Positions 278 to 34,294 of a DNA stretch of 38,548 nucleotides are shown here, piece by piece. The stretch is taken from positions 1 to 38,548 of the forward strand of contig JANLID010000376.1 in the NCBI GenBank assembly GCA_024654105.1. Reading direction: 5' to 3'. Below the pieces are notes generated by a model. That model ran no database searches. It saw nothing but the letters and a program-made list of their open reading frames with translations, and was not told the origin of the DNA. A program made the position numbers and the translations under genes. Position 1 is the stretch's first letter. Each line of letters begins with the position of its first letter. The stretch is from Gallionella sp. GTDB taxonomy: Bacteria; Pseudomonadota; Gammaproteobacteria; Burkholderiales; Gallionellaceae.

Positions 278-1291
278 CTAAGACTCCTTTTCGGTGATTT
301 CAGTGGCTTTAAGACCGAGGGCTCTTGCCCATTTCGGCGTGTCGTTAGGCGTGATCTTATCGACTTCATCTATGAGGGCGTTTTTTGCTTCTTCGAATTT
401 ATCAAAGTCAAATTTTGGCGCGCCAACTTCTTTCAGAACATTATTGATTTCGGCAAGTTTCGTATGATCCTCCGTGAGCGCCGCAACCCTAGAAGTGATC
501 TTTTCCATAGTGATGATTTGGATTCCAGTAGCGGGCTGCAGACTCCGAATTGTGATGCCCCCCGTTTTAGGATCTCGGGTAGGTTGTGTGCTTGCCAGAG
601 TGGCATCGAGCAGATTTCTGACTGTGCTGTACGTGCACGTATCGGCGTGCAATTCGATCCGATTATAGGCTTGGGTGAAGGTAAGTCTCTTTGCATCCCG
701 GCGCAGAGTTATTTCAGACTGCTGCAGCATATCAAGTACCCGTGACTTGATTTTCGCAGTCGTCGGCCCTGCGAGAATAGCTTCATTGAAGTTCTCGGCG
801 ATGCCGCTGTAAGCCGTATTCGCCGCGCCATAGCCTGTCACCCAGTTGGGTATTGCCTTGCCGATTCCGAGAAATGCGGTTCCCAGCTGCCTAATTACGT
901 TGAAATCTTTCTCCTGTAAGTCCAGTCTTCGCTGGACCTCATCGAGCCTCTGAAACCATCGGAGACAATATGCGCTAGTGAGGCCGATGCCTTTATCGAC
1001 GAAGTCGGAAATCTCGTCTGTACCCTTTGGTTTGTCTTTCGCTATATCCAACGCCGCATAGTATTGGGTGATCGGAATTTGCCCCGCTACAACGGCACCG
1101 CTCTTCTCATCGGTGGATGCGTGGATTCCAGGAGGGTTAAACAGGCTTTGCCGGTCAGCGCTGGAAGTCAGCGCACAGCCAGATAACGTGCCAACCATTG
1201 CCAGCGCGAATAATCCTCTTGTGCAGTAAATGGTGATAGACCACGATTCATCGTGTCCGCGTAATGAAAATTTGGTGAGATTTGAGGTCAT
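278..1291 (-). CDS. putative lipoprotein, hypothetical
   Basis: 337-aa ORF; N-terminal hydrophobic stretch ending in the lipobox LSGC (LFALAMVGTLSGCALTSS); start codon uncertain. Confidence 0.7.
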   Translation of the reverse strand: MTSNLTKFSLRGHDESWSITIYCTRGLFALAMVGTLSGCALTSSADRQSLFNPPGIHASTDEKSGAVVAGQIPITQYYAALDIAKDKPKGTDEISDFVDKGIGLTSAYCLRWFQRLDEVQRRLDLQEKDFNVIRQLGTAFLGIGKAIPNWVTGYGAANTAYSGIAENFNEAILAGPTTAKIKSRVLDMLQQSEITLRRDAKRLTFTQAYNRIELHADTCTYSTVRNLLDATLASTQPTRDPKTGGITIRSLQPATGIQIITMEKITSRVAALTEDHTKLAEINNVLKEVGAPKFDFDKFEEAKNALIDEVDKITPNDTPKWARALGLKATEITEKES

Positions 1292-1417: not shown

Positions 1418-4288
1418 CTAGAACCCAACCAGATCGTCGACCGGCAATACGAGTGGTGCGCCGGTAATCCGCTCCAGTGTCTTGCTGATGACTTCGACAT
1501 CGTTGTCGAAGCCACCGTGTGTTGCGCTTGCGGTCTTCTCTTGCACATCCGCACCGTTGCCGCGCCGGGTCAGTATTTTCTCCTCATGGTGGACTGTCAG
1601 GCGATCCTTCAGCTTGCTGATTTCCGCGGCATTGCGCCAGTTGGTGAGGGTTTCGGCGGTGTTGGGCGAACCATCCCAGCCGGAATACTGCGGATTGTAG
1701 ACATTCTCCAGGCCGAGGATGGGCATGCGCAAATCGGCCTCGAGCGCGTTGGACACGAAATAGAGCAGGGACTTCTGGTAGACATAGGCCACGTTGTCAT
1801 CCTGCTCGCGTTGATCCGCCAGGATGTCCAGGTACAGCCTGTTCATGATCTCGGCTTGTGATGCGTAATGCCGGTTGGCAAAGGCGACCGTGCAGGCCGG
1901 GGCATACAAATGGACGGACTTGACGCTGTCGGCCAGGTCTTTTTGTTTCAGGTTGCCGAGCAATCTGCCCAGGGCGATGGATCCGGCGGAATGGCCCATC
2001 AGGTGCAGTTCGAATTGGTCGCCCCAACTGCCGGCCAGCGAGCGCAGCGCTTCGGTCAGCAGGTCGCCGCCGCGTCCGCTTTCCGCCGCGAGTTCGGCGT
2101 TTTCCTTCATCTCAGTCCATAAGGGACGGGCGAGCGGGCGTCCGATGGTTTTTTCGACGACGGGATCGCTGATCTTGTCGGTCAGCCAGCCGCCGATGCC
2201 CCCGGCCATGCCCGCCGCGCCGGGGCTGACTTTCTCCGCCAGAATGTTGCCCAGCGATTCGAGCAGGCCGCTCTTCCACACCAGGAACAGCGGGTAGCAG
2301 CCGTTGCCGAGGAAATAGCGCCCCATTGCCTGGGCGCGCTGGATCGCATCTTTTTCACTGTTGAGGCCACCGTGCGCGTAGATCACCAGGCGTTTTTTCT
2401 CGTGCGGGTTCTGCCGGAACCAGGCATCCGGGAGAACGCACGCCTGATTCTGCAGTGTGCGAGTGACGCCATCCAGCTTGTCGAAGCGGCTGACGTGGCC
2501 GTTGTTGCCCAGCACGATGCTGTGCCGGTAGGCGGTTCCCTCGTCCCACCAGTTGGTATGGGCAGCGACGGCGGATGCAGCGCCCGCAACTTCTTTGCCG
2601 CCCGACGCGAGGCGACCCGAGACGACCCCCGGCACGCCCATCGCGGCGACCCAGACATCCATCGCATGCGCCAGCCAATCCGTATAGCTGATCACGGCGA
2701 AACCGCCGGCGCCCCATTTATCGCCCCAGGAATTCTGGATCACGAAGCCGACGCGGTTGAAGCCGACCAGCGCGAAGGCGTGGCCACCGCTGCGCGAGGG
2801 TTTGCCGTCGTAGGCTATCACCGGGAGGGTGGCATGGGATGCCGGCGGCCTGGCGCTGGTTTTGACCGTATCCCAGCCTTTATGGGTATAGGACGAAGCG
2901 TATATCGCGCCGACTTCCTGAATCGCCGCCTGCAGGTCGGTGATGGCCTGAGTGTCGATGCGGTAATACACTCCGAGCGTCCGTTCCACGGCGTCGCTGT
3001 CCCAGCCGGATATGGGCAGGACATTGTCCCCTCCCGCGTAAGACCACATGGATTCAAGGCAGACACCGTTGTGATACCAGCCCTTGAGCGCGCCCCGGCA
3101 GCTTGAGCCGTCGTAGTTCTCGCCCTCGTATTCATCGAAACGCCGGGCGAATTTGTACAACATGCGCGGACTGACCGACTCGAATTTTTTCGGCATTTCG
3201 GCAGATCGCCAACGCAGGTAGTTGACGACGCAGGCCAGGCCGAACCCGGTGCATGCCCCTTCCTGCCCCTGATCCAGAATGAGTCCGGCCTGGGTATAGG
3301 TGCCCATGAAATGCTTGATGTCTTCATCCGGCGGAAATATCTGCGGCAGCGAGTGCGGCGGCGGCAGGTACTGCCGGTCGCGCAGATCCGCCGGGTCACG
3401 CGTTACATTGAGGGATGCCCGGCGCGCCGCGATCGGGGCTGCAGCCCTGGCCAGCGCCCCGACCAGCGGTTTCGCGGCCCACGCTTTCTGCGCCATGCGG
3501 AAAGTGTCGGTAAACCGCTCCAGGCCGTGGCTGCCGCCATTGACTACCTTGCGCGCCGCCTTCAGGTCATCCCTGGCCAGCGCCTTGATCAGCTTGTCTT
3601 TGTTGGCATCGAGATAGGCCGCCAGCAGGCACGCGGCGACTTCCGGCGCGCAGGCGCTATCCGGATTGTCGGCCAGTGCAATGTCGAGCACCTTGCCGAA
3701 TTTTTCGTAGTTGTCGCGCCCGGTCAATTGCACAAAGCCCCGCCCGCGGTAGCGCGCGCCGTCGCCCGGATGCTTGTTGCCCAGTTTGTATTCGTAGGCG
3801 CTGAAGGCGGCCTGGCCGGGCAGCGTATTGAAATGGGATGGCAATTCGGCGATCGGCACGAAACCCTCGGTCTCGGCGCGTATCGTGCCCAGCGCGGTGC
3901 TGATCATGTTTGCGCCGGTCAGGCCGAAGGCTGCCAGTGCCGTGGTCACATACGGCAGATTTTTGGCGATGCTGGATGTCTTGGTGTAAGGAAACAACTT
4001 GCTCACCAATGAGGTGTCCACGCCGACGGCCAATTCTGCGGGCGGCGCAATCCCCAGGGCGGACAGAGTGCGCGGCCCGGCGATGCCGTCCGCCACCAAG
4101 CCCACGCCGGACTGCCAGGCGCGCAGGGCAGTCTCGGTGTCGGCGTCGAATTCATTGCCGGCGGCCAGACCGGGATAAGCCGCAGCGCCGTCGCCCAAGG
4201 CCTTGCGCAAGGCTTTCTTCAGCGTAGCGACCTGTTTGCCGGTGTTGCCCCGCATCAGCAGTAACATTTTGATGTTCGCGCTTTCCAT
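1418..4288 (-). CDS. multidomain hydrolase: peptidoglycan-binding domain + GH19-like lysozyme/chitinase + C1 papain-like peptidase + alpha/beta-hydrolase (lipase-like)
   Basis: 956-aa ORF; PG_binding-like N-terminus (GNTGKQVATLKKALRKAL...FDADTETALRAWQSGVGLVADGIAGPRTLSALG); GH19-like stretch (RAETEGFVPIAE...GDGARYRGRGFVQLTGRDNYEKFG); papain-like triad motifs (QEGACTGFGLACVVNYL, GGHAFALVGFN, IQNSWGDKWGAGGF); hydrolase motifs (YAHGGLNSE, LHLMGHSAGSIALG, late THGGFDND). Confidence 0.85.
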   Translation of the reverse strand: MESANIKMLLLMRGNTGKQVATLKKALRKALGDGAAAYPGLAAGNEFDADTETALRAWQSGVGLVADGIAGPRTLSALGIAPPAELAVGVDTSLVSKLFPYTKTSSIAKNLPYVTTALAAFGLTGANMISTALGTIRAETEGFVPIAELPSHFNTLPGQAAFSAYEYKLGNKHPGDGARYRGRGFVQLTGRDNYEKFGKVLDIALADNPDSACAPEVAACLLAAYLDANKDKLIKALARDDLKAARKVVNGGSHGLERFTDTFRMAQKAWAAKPLVGALARAAAPIAARRASLNVTRDPADLRDRQYLPPPHSLPQIFPPDEDIKHFMGTYTQAGLILDQGQEGACTGFGLACVVNYLRWRSAEMPKKFESVSPRMLYKFARRFDEYEGENYDGSSCRGALKGWYHNGVCLESMWSYAGGDNVLPISGWDSDAVERTLGVYYRIDTQAITDLQAAIQEVGAIYASSYTHKGWDTVKTSARPPASHATLPVIAYDGKPSRSGGHAFALVGFNRVGFVIQNSWGDKWGAGGFAVISYTDWLAHAMDVWVAAMGVPGVVSGRLASGGKEVAGAASAVAAHTNWWDEGTAYRHSIVLGNNGHVSRFDKLDGVTRTLQNQACVLPDAWFRQNPHEKKRLVIYAHGGLNSEKDAIQRAQAMGRYFLGNGCYPLFLVWKSGLLESLGNILAEKVSPGAAGMAGGIGGWLTDKISDPVVEKTIGRPLARPLWTEMKENAELAAESGRGGDLLTEALRSLAGSWGDQFELHLMGHSAGSIALGRLLGNLKQKDLADSVKSVHLYAPACTVAFANRHYASQAEIMNRLYLDILADQREQDDNVAYVYQKSLLYFVSNALEADLRMPILGLENVYNPQYSGWDGSPNTAETLTNWRNAAEISKLKDRLTVHHEEKILTRRGNGADVQEKTASATHGGFDNDVEVISKTLERITGAPLVLPVDDLVGF

Positions 4289-4568: not shown

Positions 4569-4603
4569 CCTGGTTGTGGTTCGACAAGCTCACCACAAAC
4601 GGC
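4569..4603. repeat. REP-like dispersed element (GGTTGTGGTTCGACAAGCTCACCACAAACGG)
   Basis: Carries the common 'TTCGACAAGCTCACCAC-AACGG' proteobacterial intergenic repeat core (minus-strand translation ...RPFVVSLSNH...); forms an imperfect GTGGT/ACCAC hairpin. Confidence 0.55.
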
Positions 4604-4627
4604 CTAATAATTTTCCTTGGAGTTGCC

Positions 4628-4975
4628 TTGTTCAAGCTTATCGGTTTCATTGCGGGTTATTACTTTTTCGGATTCTTCGGGGCGTTGCTCGGCCTGTTCG
4701 CCGGGTCGGTCATTGATCGCATGCGGGCGCTTGGCGCCGGCGCGCTGAACCCGCTGAAGAATGCGCTTCGTCAGGCGGTGTTCCTCGAGACGGTGTTCAT
4801 CTCGATGGGCAAGCTGGCCAAGGCCGACGGGCAGGTCTCGCAGGTCGAGATCGACCATGTCGAGCAGTTCATGTAGAAACTCGGCATGGCAGAGGGGCAT
4901 CGCCAGCAGGCGATTAAATTGTTCAAGCAGGGAGCCGATCCGGCGTTTGACATCGAGCCGACCTATCATAGATTA
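4628..4975 (+). pseudogene. DjlA-like (TerB/DnaJ-type membrane co-chaperone) N-terminal remnant
   Basis: TTG start: LFKLIGFIAGYYFFGFFGALLGLFAGSVIDRMRALG...QAVFLETVFISMGKLAKADGQVSQVEIDHVEQFM*KLGMAEGHRQQAIKLFKQGADPAFDIEPTYHRLK; DjlA-like similarity continues in frame across TAG (4874-4876) and then ends; no J domain. Confidence 0.6.
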
Positions 4976-5006
4976 AAGGGGCCGTGGTCGAATTCAAAGT
5001 CGAGAC

Positions 5007-5234
5007 CTACTTCTTGAGGAATATTTCCGGCTCTATGCCGACCTGTCTAAGGATGGCGCGGAGCGTGCCTTCCGGCATGTCGCCTGGATGATTGGGAAGA
5101 GTGGGATAGCGGCGGTGCTTCTCCGGGTTGAACCAGATTTCATGGGAGCCTGCCGCCCGGCGGTCGAATTCGAAGCCCAGTTGCTTCAATCGCCTGATGA
5201 TCACCCGATAGCTGAAGCCGGTCAGCCGCCCCAT
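5007..5234 (-). CDS. hicA: HicA-like type II toxin (YcfA family)
   Basis: 75 aa: MGRLTGFSYRVIIRRLKQLGFEFDRRAAGSHEIWFNPEKHRRYPTLPNHPGDMPEGTLRAILRQVGIEPEIFLKK; GSHEIW motif, C-terminal LRAILRQVGI; overlaps the upstream hicB-like ORF. Confidence 0.85.
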   Translation of the reverse strand: MGRLTGFSYRVIIRRLKQLGFEFDRRAAGSHEIWFNPEKHRRYPTLPNHPGDMPEGTLRAILRQVGIEPEIFLKK

Positions 5235-5467
5235 CAGGCATTCACGATCATCGGGTAATCGAAGGATTCCGCCGCCTGTGGCAGCAGTCGTTCGACATGG
5301 CGCGCCTCCTGAGCCTCGATCAGCCGCTTTGCCACATCCTGTGCGATCTCGATCGTCTCCTGAATCGTGCGCCCTTGTGCGATCAGCCCCTGCCCCTCAT
5401 CGGAGGTCGCCAGATAGAGCCCTTCCGGCAACCTCTCGATATGCAAATTCACAATACGTTCCATCAT
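5234..5467 (-). CDS. hicB: HicB-like antitoxin (short form)
   Basis: 77 aa: LHIERLPEGLYLATSDEGQGLIAQGRTIQETIEIAQDVAKRLIEAQ; immediately upstream of hicA with 1-nt overlap. Confidence 0.75.
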   Translation of the reverse strand: MMERIVNLHIERLPEGLYLATSDEGQGLIAQGRTIQETIEIAQDVAKRLIEAQEARHVERLLPQAAESFDYPMIVNA

Positions 5468-17358: not shown

Positions 17359-17802
17359 ATGCCGATGCAACTAGACTTTCAGGAGGCAACTCCGACGCGA
17401 CACGACTTGTCGGTGAACCCTATCGTATGCGACTTGCGCCCGGCGTTGCAGCAGCAACCGACAACAAGACACGTATTGCTCAGGAAGGTTATCTCTGGCG
17501 TCATTGGCTTTCAGCCTCTCAGCGATGAACAACTCGCGAAAATCCTCGACCAAATTATCGCGGAGAAGTCGCGCATGTTTGAGGCTGAGAAGGGCCTGAG
17601 AATTAAAGTCGATCAGCTTGCCAGAAAAGCATTGCTCGACCGTGGATACAGCCCAGACCTGGGCGCGCGCCCGCTGGAGCGCGCAGTAGATGAAATGATT
17701 GTTCAGCCATTGGTTGATGCGTGGTTTGGCAATCGGCTAAGGACTGGCACGGTGCAATTCTCAGCTTCGGGTGAGAATACGATCACTTTTTCGCAAGACT
17801 AA
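17359..17802 (+). pseudogene. orphan ClpB/Hsp100-like C-terminal (D2-small) domain fragment
   Basis: IGFQPLSDEQLAKILDQIIAEKSRMFEAEKGLRIKVDQLARKALLDRGYSPDLGARPLERAVDEMIVQPLVDAW matches the ClpB C-terminal D2 region; no Walker motifs upstream; homologous part begins near 17494. Confidence 0.65.
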
Positions 17803-17820: not shown

Positions 17821-18198
17821 ATGGAGCAGACATTGACGTTGACCTTTATGAGCGGATCGCGCGACGGCGAGGTGGTGCACCTTACACCCACTGGCTCACC
17901 GTCGTCGGTGTCTATTGGGCGAACTGCGCCTTGCGAGTTGGTGTTATCCGATGATCCCGATATGTCGCGCCGCCATGCGCGAATCTTCTGGAGTGGGTCA
18001 TCTTGGATGCTTGAAGACATGGGCAGTAGTAATGGAACCTTCGTCGGAGAGTTTCAAAACGAACGGAAACTGGCTGCACCTGCCACGATAAAGGAAGGCG
18101 AGATTTTTCGTGTTGGGCTGACGCGCTTACGTTCGGGCGGCGCGAAGGACGAACGTGTTGCGGTTGCTGGGGCGGCTGCGGTGGCGAAGGGGAAATGA
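17821..18198 (+). CDS. FHA domain protein
   Basis: 125 aa; VSIGRTAPCELVLSDDPDMSRRHARIFWSGSSWMLEDMGSSNGTFVGEFQ: GR, SRRHA and SSNGT FHA motifs. Confidence 0.9.
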   Translation: MEQTLTLTFMSGSRDGEVVHLTPTGSPSSVSIGRTAPCELVLSDDPDMSRRHARIFWSGSSWMLEDMGSSNGTFVGEFQNERKLAAPATIKEGEIFRVGLTRLRSGGAKDERVAVAGAAAVAKGK

Positions 18199-33635: not shown

Positions 33636-33890
33636 ATGGCCGAAGCTGTTCTGGATATCAAGCAGTGGGGCAACAATCTGGGTGTCCGCCTGCCGGCTGC
33701 GGTAGCGCGGGAAGCACACCTGCATGTTGATCAGCGCGTGCGCGTATCGGTCGAAGGCGATCAGGTCATCATCAAGCCCGTCAATGATACCCGGCTTACC
33801 CTGGAGCAGCGCCTGGCCGCCTATGATCCGCAGCGCCACGGCGTTGAGCAGATGACCACGATACAAATGCCGGGAGCCGAGCGTTGGTAG
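33636..33890 (+). CDS. mazE: MazE-like antitoxin (AbrB/SpoVT fold)
   Basis: MAEAVLDIKQWGNNLGVRLPAAVAREAHLHVDQRVRVSVEGDQVIIKP; SD AAGGAG. Confidence 0.9.
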   Translation: MAEAVLDIKQWGNNLGVRLPAAVAREAHLHVDQRVRVSVEGDQVIIKPVNDTRLTLEQRLAAYDPQRHGVEQMTTIQMPGAERW

Positions 33891-34294
33891 CTGCCAACAA
33901 AGCAGCTCCGGATAAACAAAAGCCAAAACGCAAGTCTTGGGTGCCTGATCGGCAGGATATCATCTGGATTGATTGCAATCCGCAGGTCGGGCGTGAAATG
34001 CGCGATACCCACCCGTTTCTGGTGCTCTCGCCGCGCATCTTCAACGAGAAAACCTCGTTGGTTATCGGTCTACCCATGACTACAGCGGAATACAACTCGG
34101 ATAATCCATTTGCGGTTGTGGCTGGGAAAGCAAAAGGACGAAAGACCGGGCAAACCAGCTATGTGCTTTGCCACCAGCCCCAGTCGTTTGACTGGCGCTT
34201 GCGCAAGGCCAAGGCACACCCGCTCGGCGCATTGCCCAACGCCTTGTTTGCGCAGGTTTGCGAACGGCTCAACCAGATCATTCAGGTGGGCTGA
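33884..34294 (+). CDS. mazF: MazF-like mRNA interferase toxin
   Basis: WVPDRQDIIWIDCNPQVGREMRDTHPFLVLSPRIFNEKTSLVIGLPMTT; TTG start overlapping the mazE end. Confidence 0.9.
   Translation: MVAANKAAPDKQKPKRKSWVPDRQDIIWIDCNPQVGREMRDTHPFLVLSPRIFNEKTSLVIGLPMTTAEYNSDNPFAVVAGKAKGRKTGQTSYVLCHQPQSFDWRLRKAKAHPLGALPNALFAQVCERLNQIIQVG

Follow-up and report, generated by a model that had tools for sequence, protein, structure and literature searches.

In this study, we characterized a 956-aa protein of Gallionella sp. in which four domains are joined in one chain, namely PG_binding_1, an SPN1S-type GH19 lysozyme, a C1 peptidase and an alpha/beta hydrolase (ABH), in this order from the N-terminus. Considering its domains, its relatives and its gene context, we tentatively favor the idea that the protein is a multi-hydrolase stored in the cytosol, which, like an endolysin, would act after the inner membrane has been breached. 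The features concerned are given below, with positions counted along the whole stretch of DNA that was analysed (38,548 nucleotides; hereafter, the window).

1418..4288, minus strand: PGB-GH19-C1-ABH gene (956 aa, four domains; stop codon counted in)
4043..4264, minus strand: PG_binding_1 domain, residues 9-82 (PF01471)
3473..4033, minus strand: GH19-type lysozyme domain, residues 86-272 (PHROG 181, PDB 4ok7 and 7r6s, Foldseek 9ms7)
3872-3874 and 3845-3847, minus strand: codons of the putative catalytic residues E139 and E148 of the GH19 domain
2639..3415, minus strand: C1 papain/xylellain-type cysteine peptidase domain, residues 292-550 (PF00112, PDB 3ois)
3251-3253, 2780-2782 and 2732-2734, minus strand: codons of C346, H503 and N519, which together with Q340 make up the C1 residue set
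1421..2563, minus strand: ABH domain, residues 576-956 (AlphaFold2 model, Foldseek, sub-threshold DUF900)
1988-1990, 1796-1798 and 1517-1519, minus strand: codons of S767 (in the GHSAG motif), D831 and H924 of the ABH domain, whose HGG motif occupies residues 639-641
278..1291, minus strand: lipoprotein-like gene (337 aa, LSGC lipobox-like motif), judged to lie outside the system

The gene is read from window position 4288 to 1418 on the minus strand as a single uninterrupted frame of 956 codons with no internal stop; the plus strand of the same interval contains five stops. An earlier note on this DNA had proposed one 956-aa frame with four domains, and this was borne out, the frame lying on the minus strand. 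The four activities of the protein are those that we infer from its sequence. Chance or misassembly could be dismissed as the origin of the fusion, because a scan of the genome collection showed that the whole architecture recurs, essentially end to end, at no fewer than 80 loci in at least 79 genomes. No description of the fusion was found in the literature searched, which covered only some subscription papers; the fusion is new to that literature and may have been described elsewhere.

The first three domains had direct sequence support, whereas the fourth was remote from Pfam families. PG_binding_1 was matched across residues 16-78 (PF01471, E 6e-9), with AlphaFold2 pLDDT values of 84-92 across residues 11-80. 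For the second domain, the PHROG 181 endolysin matched residues 89-273 (E 1.6e-29), PDB searches recovered 7r6s (E 2e-13) and 4ok7 (E 1e-12, or more exactly 1.1e-12), and Foldseek aligned it to endolysin 9ms7 with a TM-score (target) of 0.85; the Pfam GH19 score alone was under its cut-off (17.1 versus 25.5 bits). Two glutamates nine residues apart, E139 and E148, which we take from knowledge of the family to be the catalytic pair, aligned with their equivalents in 4ok7 and were invariant in 79 of 79 proteins among the matches listed. By sequence and fold similarity, this domain is predicted to be an endolysin-type lysozyme.

The Peptidase_C1 match (PF00112, residues 337-534) was marginal by itself (22.0 bits versus a cut-off of 20.7). 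The domain also matched PDB 3ois (E 2e-9), which we take to be the xylellain entry, a papain fold was seen in the model by Foldseek, and Q340, C346, H503 and N519 were invariant in all 89 proteins listed (79 with four domains and 10 with two). Its likeness to xylellain-type C1A peptidases comprises this catalytic motif set and an N-terminal DxxDxRD segment, but xylellain itself consists of one domain only. Complex multidomain C1A peptidases have been described as numerous in prokaryotes, in a work that left them unanalysed (PMC10380794). Between C1 and ABH, a linker at residues 550-578 was variable and modelled with low confidence. The ABH domain of the window protein had no Pfam match of its own, not even to DUF900, which was touched by 52 of 71 homologous ABH domains below the gathering threshold (best E 6.7e-5). 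An AlphaFold2 model based on 71 sequences (pLDDT 86.5, pTM 0.87) contained a strand-GHSAG-helix nucleophile elbow followed by the conserved D831 and H924 in this order, and it gave weak Foldseek matches to cutinases and lipases. S767, D831 and H924 were invariant in 79 of 79 four-domain and 10 of 10 two-domain proteins listed. According to the model, the domain is a putative lipase/esterase-like alpha/beta hydrolase fold. When the whole protein was modelled, both SPN1S-type endolysins and papain were recovered by Foldseek. The domains proposed in the earlier note were therefore supported, and their active sites were not degenerate across the 79 homologues.

PG_binding_1 starts eight residues past the start methionine, too close for a signal peptide to fit in between. 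At the N-terminus, Kyte-Doolittle hydropathy averaged over 11 aa reaches 0.89 at most, compared with 2.04 in the adjacent lipoprotein, in agreement with the earlier remark that no signal peptide is obvious. Low N-terminal hydropathy was also seen in nearly all relatives, the few outliers reflecting, in our reading, uncertain starts.

The carriers of the fusion comprise Gallionella relatives, Variovorax, Aquabacterium, Rhizobacter, Polaromonas, Pseudomonas, Dyella, Luteibacter, Buttiauxella, Desulfopila and Desulfobulbaceae, and thus represent Beta- and Gammaproteobacteria as well as Desulfobulbaceae/Desulfocapsaceae, that is, at least two phyla. Candidatus Ferrigenium altingense has the nearest relative among the matches listed (91%). 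The four-domain proteins formed one side of a fully supported branch of the core tree. Horizontal transfer is indicated by the copies of Desulfobulbaceae and Buttiauxella, which were nested among the betaproteobacterial ones. Comparison with four relatives gave dN/dS values of 0.06-0.25 for every domain, pointing to purifying selection on each of them. The distribution of the fusion was patchy: the four-domain form was present, whole or in pieces, in ∼17 of 150 relatives, and any strong match in 16 of 399 genomes sampled from the phylum. Broken copies were present in three genomes (G048, split; G032; and G020, with a stop), suggesting that the gene is dispensable. It was also observed that the fusion is split or partly duplicated at L107:9992-12803, L105:14670-15158 and L146, and that the gene decays in some lineages; the break in G048 lies near residue 632, and G029 has an additional fragment of residues 798-956. 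Long N-terminal extensions of four homologues (L218, L219, L220 and L243) were rejected as artefacts, in which upstream sequence had been read out of frame.

The commonest relatives were two-domain C1-ABH proteins, annotated as 'C1 family peptidase'. Fused ahead of C1-ABH, we found another GH19 (L175) and a PF11860 N-acetylmuramidase (L176, E 2.5e-61). Four further genomes (L177, L221, L222 and L223) encoded Amidase_2-ABH-caspase proteins, in which a caspase (PF00656) behind the ABH replaces C1; Amidase_2 was recognized by Pfam in three of the four and in L221 by similarity to L177 (6e-55). In an ABH tree of 74 sequences, the four architectures with a peptidoglycan hydrolase branched at four distinct positions among C1-ABH proteins, and a minimum of four changes was required for the five architectural states; the tree is unrooted with quick-search support, and two of the four gains are single sequences each. 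The ABH core thus appears to have gained peptidoglycan hydrolases at least four independent times (PGB-GH19; another GH19; the PF11860 muramidase; and Amidase_2 with caspase in place of C1), a count that should be regarded as provisional.

Similar enzymes were encoded next to some relatives. A GH108 muramidase gene and a 3TM holin-like gene lay directly upstream of C1-ABH in G057 (L063); the holin-like neighbor was seen only this once, beside a two-domain relative, and its Pfam score was below the cut-off (20.8 versus 24.8). GH19, tail sheath and tail tube genes were directly downstream of C1-ABH in G088 (L064), a PG_binding_1 protein gene was directly upstream of it in L057, and a GDSL-caspase-M15 protein adjoined it in L178. 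A caspase gene directly preceded a window-type fusion (L225), and a free PGB-GH19 protein was found beside a lipoprotein and a Tle1-like lipase (L184). The holin neighbor and the caspase neighbor or partner (L225, L177 and L221-L223) fit a lysis or cell-death setting. It should be noted that most C1-ABH and window-type genes had no lysis or phage gene nearby.

Some of these loci have further features. In G088, L064:5256-9745 (contig C94, minus strand) carries C1-ABH, GH19, tail sheath (PF17482) and T4-gp19 tail tube (PF06841). Further tail genes were not recognized in the surroundings, and this group of four genes is possibly a minimal contractile module. The Amidase_2-ABH-caspase proteins (L177:7707-10574, L221:5835-8816, L222:4658-7594 and L223:5599-8580) are 955-993 aa long; at least in L221 and L222, the next gene lies no more than about 10 bp downstream and encodes a protein of ∼620-640 aa with no Pfam match. 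The GDSL lipase-caspase-M15 peptidase at L178:3808-7194 (1128 aa) combines the same three types of activity in an unrelated chain.

The lipoprotein beside the fusion had been suggested, with reserve, as an immunity or partner protein. It was found in only 2 of 150 relatives, compared with ∼17 for the fusion. In G048, one of these relatives, the lipoprotein precedes the same small protein as in the window and then a patatin phospholipase (PF01734, 6e-15), and two opposite-strand genes separate this operon from the split fusion; the lipoprotein therefore seems to belong with the patatin operon and not with the fusion gene. Since the window contig ends just past the small protein, patatin is probably the next gene, off its edge. 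On the basis of its rarity and of this gene order, a role of the lipoprotein as immunity partner is unlikely.

Other genes of the window were noted in passing. A TerB-DnaJ (DjlA-like) remnant at 4574-4999 (plus strand) retains the first 142 of 275 residues with an internal stop; in several genomes of the Gallionella group, the fusion adjoins an intact DjlA-like relative. Abutting the remnant, a HicA toxin gene (PF07927) is preceded by a HicB-like small gene with no Pfam match (5007-5234 and 5237-5467, minus strand). A short gene at 17359-17802 (plus strand) with only the ClpB D2-small C-terminal domain, probably a Clp remnant, is followed by an FHA-domain gene (17821-18198), and a PemK/MazF-type toxin gene (PF02452) is located at 33884-34294 (plus strand).

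Our endolysin-like reading is based on the intact active sites, the purifying selection, the lack of a signal peptide, the solitary gene and the recurrent linkage of the ABH core with peptidoglycan hydrolases and cysteine peptidases. The protein would be stored in the cytoplasm, as a phage endolysin is, and we propose that it would do no harm there, being separated from its substrates by the inner membrane. Once this membrane was breached by a holin, phage, membrane toxin or damage, the PGB-GH19 part would bind and cut glycan strands, the C1 peptidase would degrade proteins and the ABH would attack lipid or ester bonds, and the cell would be lysed and digested in one step. The lysis might be altruistic, set cell contents free or allow the remains of neighbors to be digested, and those to profit might be kin, a population threatened by phage or the producer itself, as a scavenger. 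An attack on the glycan, protein and lipid or ester bonds of the envelope was also envisaged in the earlier note, and this part of it is strengthened by the linkage of C1-ABH to many peptidoglycan hydrolases.

Alternatively, although we consider it unlikely, the protein might be a digestive enzyme that is set free when part of the population lyses, as in T10SS-type systems, with other cells or biomass as food. The hosts include chemolithoautotrophs, namely the Gallionella group, which would have little obvious use for such an enzyme. A set of hydrolases without a signal would suit this role, as would the GH108 and holin-like genes beside C1-ABH in G057 and the gene islands with patatin, class 3 lipase and phospholipase A1 that adjoin the fusion in L038 and L040. 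There is also established precedent: signal-less exoproteins and cell-wall hydrolases leave the cell by means of holin/endolysin cassettes or type 10 secretion system-dependent lysis of specialized cells (PMC10847048, PMC9527704). However, a lysis cassette was absent beside the window gene and at most loci, and the fusion has no conserved holin/spanin cassette, a single holin-like neighbor aside.

Injection into rivals as an antibacterial effector, in which PGB-GH19 would open the wall and C1 and ABH would kill by proteolysis and lipolysis, appears to be rather improbable. The type VI secretion system (T6SS) effector TseP (8xcl), a dual-function wall-attacking effector with a GH19-like lysozyme, was a structural match, Tle1-like lipases (PF09994) adjoin some relatives, although the window ABH belongs to a different family, and contractile tail genes accompany C1-ABH in G088. 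This reading is weakened by the missing delivery systems. The T6SS component VipB/TssC (PF05943) was found in none of 28 carrier genomes, a contractile sheath gene was present in only 9 of the 28 and was not found in the protein's own genome (97% complete), and the 956-aa protein had no VgrG/PAAR/Rhs-type part by Pfam. When every ORF up to 10 kb from the 80 loci was clustered, no conserved partner emerged and no conserved secretion or immunity gene, the largest neighbor clusters being generic (ABC ATPases and Bug-type receptors) or reflecting synteny of close relatives. The dedicated delivery route suggested in the earlier note thus found no support, and neither a T6SS effector nor the cargo of an extracellular contractile injection system, for which sheath and tube genes adjoin just the one relative, was retained as a candidate. 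Type IV secretion was also set aside, as the pilin-type TrbC occurred in 3 of 17 cases, only two of them above the cut-off, with no link to the fusion. The protein may be exported by some unrecognized route. A defence role, which the earlier note had also raised, was not backed by location in defence islands: the gene had no PADLOC match, and PADLOC matches were equally frequent near and far (59 versus 51 families, nearly all with single members).

It is more improbable still that the protein is a self-processing toxin, in which C1 would cut its own chain and thereby release the C-terminal ABH, the actual effector. Papain-like releasing peptidases act so in polymorphic toxins (PMC3482391), and C1 directly precedes ABH in all C1-ABH proteins, with the variable, low-confidence linker between them; however, the peptidase is C-terminal to ABH in the Amidase_2-ABH-caspase form, the active sites are kept in all peptidoglycan hydrolase parts, and the C-terminus lacks toxin diversification. 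Finally, it is very improbable that the protein is a prophage lysis enzyme that was domesticated and serves no special role, since the closeness of its GH19 part to phage endolysins is outweighed by non-phage neighbors, conservation of the gene across at least two phyla and the lack of any full-length or C1-ABH relative in 50,697 phage records (isolated GH19 or C1 domains only) or IMG/VR contigs (C1-domain matches only). A phage endolysin as the whole system was rejected as well, as no phage among these records and contigs carried the fusion and one two-domain relative alone had a holin-like neighbor.

With regard to known systems, the endolysin-like reading has parallels. GH19 phage endolysins (SPN1S, 4ok7; PWe2, 9ms7) share with the fusion the lysozyme fold, two glutamates nine apart at the equivalent place, the lack of a signal peptide and, often, a peptidoglycan-binding domain; they are lysozyme-only, whereas the window protein adds a cysteine peptidase and an ABH and its gene is chromosomal. 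To our knowledge, the nearest functional analogue is LysA together with LysB. In mycobacteriophages, this pair combines peptidoglycan hydrolase modules, including GH19, with a lipolytic alpha/beta-fold enzyme against several envelope layers (PMC3314691, PMC6116114). The multi-layer attack at lysis resembles that proposed here, but LysA and LysB are two separate phage proteins directed at a mycolic-acid envelope, whereas the fusion occurs in Gram-negative hosts and has a papain-type peptidase in the chain.

Whereas the lysins and effectors known so far mostly have one or two activities, the fusion unites three hydrolase types and a wall anchor in one soluble protein, which is maintained with intact active sites in Pseudomonadota and Desulfobacterota-type bacteria (at least 79 genomes). 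That the same functional set was apparently rebuilt at least four times around one ABH core suggests that the three activities are useful together. It is possible, albeit doubtful, that enzymes kept in the cytosol for self-digestion have arisen convergently in bacteria as a class, each joining, from unrelated sources, a peptidoglycan hydrolase, a papain- or caspase-type cysteine peptidase and a lipase/esterase. Such enzymes would take the whole cell apart in a programmed or lysis-coupled way, and the window protein would be their most widespread version. The endolysin-like reading makes a testable prediction, namely that storage in the cytosol would be safe and breach of the membrane lethal. 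The fusion would then be a ready-made multi-activity lysin, and this reading would explain proteins that are now labelled in public records only as 'C1 family peptidase'.
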